DNA of 25,502 nucleotides. Origin: a virus. The position numbers and the translations under genes are program-made. Each line of letters opens with the position of its first letter. Within the stretch, counting starts at the first letter, position 1. Below are positions 17,465 to 20,447 of this stretch, in pieces. Below the pieces are notes generated by a model that saw only the letters and a list, made by a program, of their open reading frames with translations, was not told the origin of the DNA and ran no database searches. The stretch is from IMG/VR virus record IMGVR_UViG_3300041991_000046, positions 1-25,502 of that record; one strand, 5' to 3'.

Positions 17465-17853
17465 CCACTCGGCGGCTTCGGTTGAAAGGAGCAAGGGGCT
17501 AAGCCCCTTGCTCCTTTCAACCTCGCCGCCGGGCCTTCATGGGTCGTGGGTCGTAGACCCTTCCTTACGGTCTTACGATCCTACGGCCCTTTAGTAACTT
17601 CTTATGGGAATAAAAATTAAGCTATACGTATGTATAGTACCTATACTATTTTTCTAAAACTTTTAGTTTGTTTCGTAAGAATGTAAGAGTGTAAGGAATT
17701 GAAGATCTAAGAAGTAAAACAACAACTTAGCGCATTACGAAATCCTTACGATTTTTCGATCCTTACGATCTTGACTCTGCATTTGCCTAAAAAATAAGCA
17801 CAAAGACTGCATTTGTAGAGCGCACTACTTTTATACCATTTTGGGAGCTATTC
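17465..17853. other. AT-rich intergenic region, candidate origin/operator
   Basis: This stretch of 389 bases has no supportable gene. It starts with the long palindrome (17482-17520) and then becomes AT-rich from about 17590, unlike its GC-rich surroundings. It carries clustered CTTACG/CGTAAG motifs and short CTATAC/GTATAG inverted repeats (17622-17646, including GTATAG-TAC-CTATAC). Directly downstream lie an XRE regulator and a primase-helicase. That context fits a replication origin, an operator, or both. A weak promoter candidate, TATACC (17832-17837), lies just before the ribosome site. Confidence 0.55.
17482..17520 (+). terminator. 39-bp near-perfect palindrome after early block 1
   Basis: Two 19-base arms (17482-17500 and 17502-17520) are exact reverse complements around a single central base, and the pairing extends outward imperfectly through CGGCGG/CCGCCG. 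It begins 18 bases after the stop of the 268-aa gene. As RNA it is a very strong hairpin ending in CTCCTTTC rather than a T-run. It may act as a bidirectional terminator or as a structural DNA element. Confidence 0.6.
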
Positions 17854-17899
17854 GTGACAACTCAAGAAAATTTCGTAAGGATCGACGTATTTCGTAAGG
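17564..17899. repeat. CTTACG/CGTAAG motif field
   Basis: CTTACG occurs at 17564, 17572, 17745 and 17762, and the inverse CGTAAG at 17674, 17874 and 17893, with near-copies GTAAG at 17683 and 17691. ATCCTTACGAT appears twice 17 bases apart (17742-17752, 17759-17769). TTTCGTAAGG appears twice 19 bases apart (17871, 17890), inside the start of the XRE gene. This looks like binding sites for the XRE protein or replication iterons. Confidence 0.65.
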
Positions 17900-18120
17900 T
17901 TCGAAAGGCTTTGAACCTATCCCAAAGGGACCTCGCTTACGAGGCAAATGTGTGCCCAGCGACCGTGGCAAAGATCGAACTGGGCCATGCCCCCAAGCTC
18001 TCCGTGCTGTTCGCCTTAGCCACTGCGATGCACATTGACTACCGCGATCTGCTTGTGCAACCATCTGGCCCTTTCCCCCCGGTCAATGATGCCCTCTGCA
18101 AATCTTTCCTTCATCCATGA
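17854..18120 (+). CDS. XRE-family HTH regulator
   Basis: This 88-aa protein starts at GTG 17854, with GGGAG 6 bases upstream. Residues about 13-45 are a Cro/CI-type helix-turn-helix (VRKALNLSQRDLAYEANVCP, then ATVAKIELG), with the recognition helix around 34-42. The C-terminus is short, without a dimerisation or LexA-type cleavage domain. It likely binds the surrounding CTTACG motifs, two of which lie within its own 5' coding end, so autoregulation is plausible. Its stop overlaps the primase start in an ATGA junction, so regulator and replication enzyme are translationally coupled. It could be a replication initiator rather than a repressor. Confidence 0.85.
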   Translation: MTTQENFVRIDVFRKVRKALNLSQRDLAYEANVCPATVAKIELGHAPKLSVLFALATAMHIDYRDLLVQPSGPFPPVNDALCKSFLHP

Positions 18121-20447
18121 ACATCTACTTCCTGTCTGCTGACAAACCCATCGCGAAGCGCTACGAAGTCAACGCCAAGTTCCCTTACCCCTTCGTCTAC
18201 GAAGTCACCTCGTACCGAGAAACCTGTACCAATCTCCACGATCTTTTCCAACTCCTTCCGACCTACGCGACAAAAGGCGCGTGCATGGTCAAAGGAGAAC
18301 TGGGACGTGATCTCGTACAGGAATCCCGCAAAGGAACGACAGACCCTGAACAGTTGACCGAATGGATTTGTCTAGATCTCGATGGGATCGAAGGCTACCA
18401 ATCCGTCGACCACTTCCTATCCGACATCGGGTGTGCTGACACCGACTACATCCTGCAGTGGTCTAGCTCCATGGGTATCGAGAACTCGAAAGGTTTCCGC
18501 TGCCACATCTTCATGCAGCTCGACAAGCCAGTCCATCCCCAGCTGCTGAAGAATTGGTTGACGGATCTCAACCTGACCCGTGCGATCCTGTCCAGCCAGC
18601 TTCAACTTACCAAGACAGGCAACTCTTTGCGGTGGCCACTCGACATCACCACGTGCCAAAACGACAAGCTGTTGTACATCGCTCCTCCGATACTCGGCAA
18701 AGGAGTAACTGACCCGTTCAAGAAAACTCCTCGTATCACCTTCGAACAACGGAACAAGAAGAAGCTGTCCCTTTCGTTCCAACTGACCCTTCAAGATGCT
18801 CTGCGTGACCGTACACAAGCAAAAGTGACCGAGCTACGCCTAGCAGCTGGGTTGCCAAAGATGAAGTCTGCCAAGTACAAGTTCGATGGCACCATCGAAT
18901 ACATGGCCAACCCGAACCAAGCTACGATCACTGAGATGAAGGAAGAACGCGGCTTCGTCTACTTCAACCTGAACGGCGGGGATTCGTGGGCCTACTTCCA
19001 CCCCGTAGATGCGCCTGAGTTCATCCATAACTTCAAGGGAGAGCCGATCTACCGTACGCAAGAGCTGCTTCCCAGCTATTGGGCCAAGCTCACTCAGCAA
19101 GCAGCTTCAGGTGCTCCTGATCTCCACGGCAACATCTACCTTGCATTTCGTGAGTTCACTTCTGGGGTGTACTGGAATGGCATCTACGACACCGTCGCCG
19201 ACAAGTTAGAGCTGTACCCTGCCAAGTCAGAAACCCAGTTGCGGCATTTCATGAAGAACCACAAGATGCCGCTTGGTGACTCGATTCCTGACTGGCGTAG
19301 AGCCTTCGAGCCAAACAACCCGAATGTGATCGACAGGCAGGCGCAGACGGTGAACATCTACAACCCAAGCGAGCTGATGAAGGACCTCAACCCTCCTAAG
19401 GTTACAGCTCCTCCCCCAATCATCAACAAGATCATCGACCATGTACTCGGCAACGACCCGACTGGAGCGACGCTCGACCAGTTTTACAACTGGCTTGCCG
19501 TTATCGTGCAGTACAAGACCAGAGCAGGCACTGCGTGGGTCCTGCACGGCACCCAAGGCACGGGTAAAGGGCTGTTGATGCACAACATCCTCACTCCGCT
19601 CTTTGGGCATGAGAACGTAGCTGCCAAGCGGATGGAGGAGTTGGAGTCTCAGTTCACTGAGTTCATGGAGAACAAGTTCATCGTGTTCATCGACGAGATC
19701 GAGTCGGGCAAAAGCCTGTACCACACGAAGGTCACCGCTAAGCTCAAGAACCTCATCGTCGAGCCTGTGATCAGCATCCGCAATATGTACCGACCCGCAT
19801 ACCTCGCGCCAAATTTCACGAGCATGATCTTTGCGTCGAACAAACCTTCGAGCGTAGAGATTGCGCCCGACGACCGGCGGTTCAACGTAGGGATCTACCA
19901 AGAGAACAAGCTGCAGATCACGAACGCCGAGATCGACGCCATTGAGACTGAGCTTCCTGATTTCTATGCTTTTTTGATGCACTACCCGGCGGACGCTGAC
20001 CGTGCGCGCACTCCACTGATCTCTCAATCGCGTTCTACGTTGATCGACATCAGCCGTACTGCCATCGACACAATCAGTGATGCCCTACTTGCTGGAGATC
20101 TCCAAACACTTTGGGACCACTTGCCAAGCCAAAAGGGCATCAGTGCTGGCAATGCGCTACTTCAGACCAAGGCCCAAGGGTTTCGCGATCTGATCGTAGA
20201 CATCGTCACCAACATTGCAGCGAATGATCGATTGACGCGTGATGAGCTCTACACAATTTTTGAGTACACAGTGGGCAACATGCCAACCTCGCCAAACAAG
20301 TTGACCAGTACTCTGAAACATCACCGGCTGCACCTCAAGCCGGTATGGAAGCATGGCCGCTCAGTACGCGGCATTGAGGTTGTTTGGAAATACGACCCGG
20401 CATGGCTCGCCCAAGCCCAATCTGAAATCTCTAACGGAATGATCTAA
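18117..20447 (+). CDS. Primase-helicase (AEP-like plus SF3-type ATPase)
   Basis: The 776-aa N-terminal half looks like an archaeo-eukaryotic primase/primase-polymerase: GACMVKGELGRDLVQESRKG (about 54-73), a metal-binding LDLDG (86-90), RCHIF (128-132) and SLRWPLDITT. The C-terminal half is a virus/plasmid SF3-type helicase (DUF5906-like) with Walker A GTQGTGKG (478-485), Walker B FIVFIDE (521-527), the sensor-like region SMIFASNKPSS, and the arginine-finger motif DDRRF near 587. Such fusions prime and unwind DNA at phage and plasmid origins. It follows the candidate origin and is coupled to the XRE gene. No separate polymerase is in the window. Confidence 0.9.
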   Translation: MNIYFLSADKPIAKRYEVNAKFPYPFVYEVTSYRETCTNLHDLFQLLPTYATKGACMVKGELGRDLVQESRKGTTDPEQLTEWICLDLDGIEGYQSVDHFLSDIGCADTDYILQWSSSMGIENSKGFRCHIFMQLDKPVHPQLLKNWLTDLNLTRAILSSQLQLTKTGNSLRWPLDITTCQNDKLLYIAPPILGKGVTDPFKKTPRITFEQRNKKKLSLSFQLTLQDALRDRTQAKVTELRLAAGLPKMKSAKYKFDGTIEYMANPNQATITEMKEERGFVYFNLNGGDSWAYFHPVDAPEFIHNFKGEPIYRTQELLPSYWAKLTQQAASGAPDLHGNIYLAFREFTSGVYWNGIYDTVADKLELYPAKSETQLRHFMKNHKMPLGDSIPDWRRAFEPNNPNVIDRQAQTVNIYNPSELMKDLNPPKVTAPPPIINKIIDHVLGNDPTGATLDQFYNWLAVIVQYKTRAGTAWVLHGTQGTGKGLLMHNILTPLFGHENVAAKRMEELESQFTEFMENKFIVFIDEIESGKSLYHTKVTAKLKNLIVEPVISIRNMYRPAYLAPNFTSMIFASNKPSSVEIAPDDRRFNVGIYQENKLQITNAEIDAIETELPDFYAFLMHYPADADRARTPLISQSRSTLIDISRTAIDTISDALLAGDLQTLWDHLPSQKGISAGNALLQTKAQGFRDLIVDIVTNIAANDRLTRDELYTIFEYTVGNMPTSPNKLTSTLKHHRLHLKPVWKHGRSVRGIEVVWKYDPAWLAQAQSEISNGMI

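Follow-up and report, generated by a model that had tools for sequence, protein, structure and literature searches.

In the phage DNA analysed here, short CTTACG words are gathered in front of an XRE-family regulator gene and a primase-SF3 helicase gene, which raises the question of what this field of words is for and which protein reads it. The window, meaning the whole stretch of 25,502 nucleotides that was analysed, corresponds to a 25.5-kb virus record that carries genes for terminase and portal, and its phage is a distant relative of Pseudomonas phage KPP25. Sequence evidence strongly supports the words as a candidate origin of phage DNA replication, and their reader is probably the tail domain of the primase-helicase that the phage itself encodes, and not the XRE protein. 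While iteron origins themselves are well established, little is understood of the way in which initiator and origin words can evolve jointly and still keep replication going.

Seven exact hexamers were located at 17564(+), 17572(+), 17674(-), 17745(+), 17762(+), 17874(-), and 17893(-), all within the about 340 bases for which the original prediction had claimed them, and an eighth lies just beyond that range at 17936(+). The claimed spacings of 17 bp (17745/17762) and 19 bp (17874/17893) are likewise correct, as is the position of two hexamers inside the XRE coding start, where the reading frame opens at GTG 17854. Partial copies were found at 17580 (CCTACGG), 17682 (TGTAAG), 17690 (TGTAAGG), and 17734 (ATTACGA). 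Over the whole window, the frequency of CTTACG is ordinary (13 copies vs. 8.4 expected, with 8 of 100 shuffles reaching 13). A comparison with shuffled sequence, which had been proposed as a check, proved locally extreme: positions 17500–18000 hold eight copies vs. a shuffle mean of 0.34 and a maximum of three, none of 5000 dinucleotide shuffles reached eight, and no 6-mer of any kind did so there in 2000 shuffles. The longer word CTTACGA has seven copies in the 25.5-kb window, all of them within 17572–17942. Three of the window's 13 CTTACG copies stand in tandem at 1479–1496 on the minus strand and belong to a coding 6-nt repeat (YAYAYA) that is unrelated to the field.

The field consists of four blocks in alternating orientation, in the order forward, AT-rich tract, reverse, short conserved box, forward, and reverse (Table 1). 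These blocks combine into two inverted pairs of iterons, each spanning about 100 bp: one joins the left forward block with the reverse array and the other the right forward block with the far-right reverse block. In the first pair, 25-nt arms (I2, 17561–17585/17674–17698) are 80% complementary, and in the second pair a 13-bp perfect inverted match (I5, 100% complementary) links the two blocks. The AT-rich region that had been predicted in the field was borne out by a tract with 23% GC vs. 58% for the window. Short repeats clustered far above chance and an AT-rich tract, both expected of an iteron origin of the P4/SaPI kind, are thus found together, and the same element also encodes the kind of initiator expected there, with primase and SF3 helicase domains.

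Table 1. Positions of the field, its neighbouring genes, and the proposed reader domain in the window
Feature	Position	Strand	Details
Perfect 21-bp inverted repeat, 1-nt loop	17480..17522	.	I1, 100% complementary; between upstream 268-aa gene and field
Left forward block	17564..17586	+	Three 8-bp tandem units CTTACGGT / CTTACGAT / CCTACGG
AT-rich tract	17590..17673	.	Flanked by two convergent iteron blocks; candidate DNA-unwinding element
Reverse array	17671..17698	-	TTTCGTAAGAATGTAAGAGTGTAAGGAA, three units spaced 8–9 bp
Conserved box	17717..17734	+	AAACAACAACTTAGCGCA, family form AATCAANNACTTAGCGCA; after reverse array
Right forward block	17734..17769	+	Partial ATTACGA and two CCTTACGAT spaced 17 bp
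XRE-family regulator	17854..18120	+	HTH_3, 2.5e-09; between field and primase
Far-right reverse block	17873..17898	-	Two TTTCGTAAGG spaced 19 bp; inside XRE frame start
Primase-SF3 helicase, proposed initiator	18117..20447	+	776 aa; DUF5906 2.2e-19; phrog_24712 3e-202
C-terminal winged-helix domain, proposed iteron reader	20154..20387	+	Residues 680–757; predicted structure; divergence tracks word
Codons of residues 742 (P) to 744 (W)	20340..20348	+	Proposed to set specificity at word letters 5 (742) and 2 (744)

The 21-bp inverted repeat in front of the field is a probable transcription terminator or insulator. It carries no T tail, and no T-run terminator was called there in a promoter/terminator scan.

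Searches with the primase-helicase yielded about 90 further loci, and 86 loci were used for the locus counts. In most relatives, an AT trough lies directly upstream of the primase-helicase gene. Most of the 86 loci have such an AT-rich place with repeats next to the primase, and an over-represented 6-mer (p<=0.01) was found beside the primase in 25 of the 86 loci. The words vary by lineage and include CTAGCA, ATCTCA, CTTCCA, CTTCCAA, GTTCCGA, TCGGAA, CTTACA, GTTAGA, and others. Their geometry is conserved. Among site pairs from 30 loci, with words picked blind to orientation, same vs. opposite orientation was counted as 86:12 at distances of 5–25 nt, 31:87 at 26–75 nt, 28:86 at 76–125 nt, and 64:26 at 126–180 nt, and all four distance classes lie beyond 5000 orientation shuffles. 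AT-rich control regions 2.4–4.9 kb downstream in the same loci had no orientation pattern, and repeated words were rare in them. Many loci have a box similar to AATCAANNACTTAGCGCA after their reverse array, e.g., AATCAATGACTTAGCGCA in L084, with a score that is partly circular because the seed was taken from the sequences themselves (13 for the reverse-strand control vs. 16 forward). A counterpart of the far-right reverse block, about 100 nt past the forward block, is also present in L006, L073, and L077, and in three relatives of 61–67 kb the word is concentrated at the primase-side place (6 of 9, 7 of 13, and 7 of 10 copies). Several relatives, such as L014, L040, L045, and L074, have no recognisable field beside the primase, and GC skew gave no clear origin signal in the window or in five relatives.

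Since the XRE gene lies directly downstream of the field and holds two sites in its start, the protein might bind the CTTACG words, repress its own operon, and control the origin as in plasmid replicons, and the original prediction had taken the locus for such a plasmid-style origin with an autoregulating XRE. HTH_3 proteins commonly autoregulate, and a precedent is given by pRN1, for which PMC4234260 describes a repressor gene and a primase-helicase in one replication operon. However, just six of the 86 loci (the window, L003, L005, L010, L011, and L016) have an XRE gene between the field and the primase, which falls short of the consistent presence with the motif field expected of an XRE-controlled plasmid-style replicon, and many loci without XRE retain the field and the same geometry with other words. 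XRE was therefore rejected as the general reader of the words. Furthermore, the word tracks the primase-helicase, as described below, and two XRE-bearing loci have separate palindromes just before their XRE genes (L003 at about -531 and L005 at about -500 to -430 from the primase start; TTCTAGCAC/GTGCTAGAA, AGTTCTTGGC/GCCAAGAACT, and CTCCGTGTATTA/TAATACACGGAG). These are more typical of XRE operators and are likely to be such operators, distinct from the field words. Control of the field by XRE is hence highly improbable. What stood of the prediction are the origin-like repeats round an AT-rich tract before a primase-SF3 helicase, whereas XRE as initiator, autorepressor, or reader found no support. 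The field can be explained without the XRE gene, a lineage-specific insertion with its start overlapping the final iteron block. This gene may have a regulatory function in the operon, and it may have an additional role at the two sites in its own start. When XRE's own sequence was used for a search, no relatives in viral contigs were confirmed.

With the primase-helicase as the probable reader, the C-terminal part of this protein becomes the region of interest. A structure model built from 77 relatives reached a mean pLDDT of 92.2, and its C-terminal order of helix-strand-helix-helix-strand-strand, at residues 680–754, corresponds to a winged helix. Pfam assigned no family to the isolated C-terminal domain. 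For the covariation tests that follow, words were partly read by eye and the related loci are non-independent; under these conditions, word distance correlated with winged-helix divergence over 33 loci (Mantel rho 0.296, p 0.0015; partial 0.263, p 0.0005), and the winged helix was the sole part tracking the word after correction, as opposed to other parts of the primase-helicase (partial p of at least 0.15). Fully automatic 6-mers gave a weaker domain correlation in the same direction (29 loci, partial 0.154, p 0.005; 23 loci, partial p 0.055).

A scan of all 776 columns over the 33 loci pointed to residue 744, which is R or K in nine of nine loci with G-words and in none of the 24 others (max-statistic p 0.002). 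Predictions for this residue, written before the residues of further loci were inspected, were right in all 26 testable cases. On a tree built without the winged-helix domain, word class and residue-744 class need nine changes each, and word letter 2 and residue 744 agreed in eight of eight independent tree pairs (p 0.0078). Over 61 rows, R/K at residue 744 goes with G at letter 2 in a 15 vs. 46 split without error, the next best column making seven errors. Residue 742 covaries with letter 5. Where letter 5 is C, it is K or R in 14 of the 18 loci of the first set and in all 11 of the further loci, and where letter 5 is A, in none of eight and none of 15, respectively, the second set being not strictly blind, as its words had been read earlier but its residues had already been displayed once; where letter 5 is G, residue 742 is Q in three of three loci. 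The window has W744 with C at letter 2 and P742 with A at letter 5. The natural pairs include close sisters that differ (L058/L065 and L050/L052). For L016, the residue-742 rule spoke for CTAGC instead of the CTTCTA read initially, and the DNA there does contain CCTAGC sites, in forward-forward-reverse order.

A recognition code in the wing strand is likely to underlie these patterns. At letter 2, G would call for R/K at residue 744, and C or another non-G letter for W; at letter 5, C would call for K/R at residue 742, A for a small or hydrophobic residue, and G for Q. The code would operate within one origin geometry that a widespread phage lineage shares and whose word has changed many times. 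Covariation and predicted structure together suggest that the two residues contact the DNA. It was also considered whether a different phage protein that is co-inherited with the primase-helicase reads the words, so that the link to residues 742 and 744 would be indirect. Genes near an origin travel together, and small ribbon-helix-helix-like open reading frames lie beside some fields (L003 and L007). However, linkage would raise many columns equally, while a single one of 776 fits without error; all eight independent switches coincide; and column 744 belongs to the predicted winged helix, with which proteins of this kind usually read DNA. A co-inherited reader is accordingly the least probable of the alternatives and deserves very little credence. 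The open reading frames concerned (L003, 3993–4211(-); L007, 4425–4664(-)) are small, divergent, and adjoin the field.

The primase-helicase of the window is 42% identical to its homologue in KPP25, which has R744. No field was found beside the KPP25 primase gene, and all 13 genomic copies of TGTTACGA lie in the two most AT-rich spots of this genome at 26.4 and 58.2 kb (L115, 26219–26894; L116, about 58.2–58.6 kb). Roughly half a genome separates the two fields, one of which lies about 12 kb upstream of the primase gene and the other about 17 kb past it. TGTTACGA is a G-word, as the R744 rule demands. Conserved counterparts of the field at 26.4 kb exist in phiR18, CRPAP1904, and YMC17/07/R4900a, and an origin or iteron is not described in the CRPAP1904 paper. 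Kochitakasuvirus KPP25 and its relatives thus resemble the window in having a homologous primase-helicase and fields with the word predicted for R744, but differ from it in that KPP25 has two fields, both off the primase gene, and GTTACGA instead of CTTACGA. Another relative, G001 (L011, W744), also has two fields off its primase, with CCTAGC at about 25.5 and 50.3 kb. From these two phages it follows that the field can move and double while still matching the protein. As a separate observation, KPP25 has a dense short repeat at about 29.7–30.0 kb (L115), with as many as 32 copies of CCAGCC per 400 bases.

The positions in KPP25 also bear on another explanation, according to which the field is a promoter or operator for the control of early transcription by the primase-helicase or by a different phage protein, with replication starting elsewhere. 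The field is intergenic and directly upstream of the operon, and iteron initiators often repress their own promoter. Against this, no sigma-70-like promoter was found at the field in the promoter/terminator scan, the KPP25 fields are far from the primase gene at the two most AT-rich places, the 23%-GC tract lies between convergent blocks, and SF3 primase-helicases are initiators in related systems. A purely transcriptional role is thus very unlikely. As the last iteron pair overlaps the XRE start, the initiator could nevertheless influence the operon.

On the basis of sequence and modelled structure, 17564–17898 very probably constitutes a replication origin, in which the downstream primase-SF3 helicase binds the CTTACGA iterons with its C-terminal winged helix and in which initiator and words co-evolve. 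By analogy with P4 alpha, SaPI Rep, and Cch2, the primase-helicase would bind the inverted iteron pairs via its winged helix, helicase rings would be recruited to both sides of the DNA to be melted and oriented there by the two pairs, the rings would unwind the AT-rich tract, and the primase domain would start synthesis. Direct binding, ring loading, and a replication start at the field are thus expected from these related systems, and the field would work like a P4/SaPI-type iteron origin of a self-loading primase-helicase.

Like the protein described here, P4 alpha combines primase and SF3-type helicase parts in a single protein. The 8-bp iterons of P4 (type 1 repeats) resemble the field in forming blocks of two or three with 8–18 bp spacing and alternating orientation, the block order being FF-RR-F twice in crr and RRR-F-RR in ori, and the two separate fields each of KPP25 and G001 are reminiscent of P4 ori and crr. 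The helicase regions of P4 alpha and the window family were aligned by hhalign (probability 93.6, E 2e-07), with an alignment that stops before the winged helix. Unlike in P4, the blocks here are wider (about 80–110 bp from forward to reverse) and are accompanied by an AT-rich tract, a conserved box, and lineage-specific words.

SaPI Rep and SCCmec Cch2 recognise short iterons beside their own gene with a C-terminal DNA-binding domain (PMC7581432); they are self-loading helicases with a C-terminal reader of iterons, as is proposed here for the phage protein. The model matched the SaPI5 primase-helicase (7ola) over residues 296–751, C-terminal end included (Z 16.6, rmsd 4.6, 352 aligned, 11% identity). 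In contrast to SaPI and Cch2, the origin here lies upstream of the gene, not downstream, and has the four-block geometry. The closest solved relative is the NrS-1 primase-polymerase, with a sequence match of 8.6e-60 and a C-terminal region that aligns up to model residue 756 (Z 30.2, rmsd 3.7, 397 residues). For NrS-1, two 8-nt recognition copies in the genome centre have been reported (PMC7102993), whereas no iteron field such as that of the window is described in that paper. The NrS-1 Tail (6k9c), reported as a novel fold (PMC7102993), aligns with model residues 680–756, the part modelled here as a winged helix.

Lineage-specific iteron words are also a feature of geminiviruses, in which the specificity residues lie in Rep; Rep shares such words with the system described here, but is an unrelated rolling-circle initiator of a single-stranded genome. 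The novelty lies in a four-block geometry that is conserved while its words turn over, together with a two-residue recognition rule. If true, origins would become predictable from protein sequence alone, and initiator specificity would be explained by two residues. Dozens of natural pairs point to two residues and two base positions, which makes initiator-origin co-evolution directly testable, and candidate origins that were previously unrecognised can be named in cultured phages such as KPP25. The primase-helicase was also found in bacterial contigs of 87–144 kb (L085, Herminiimonas sp. CN; L086, Variovorax; L084, a Janthinobacterium MAG), and for this reason the group may include prophages.
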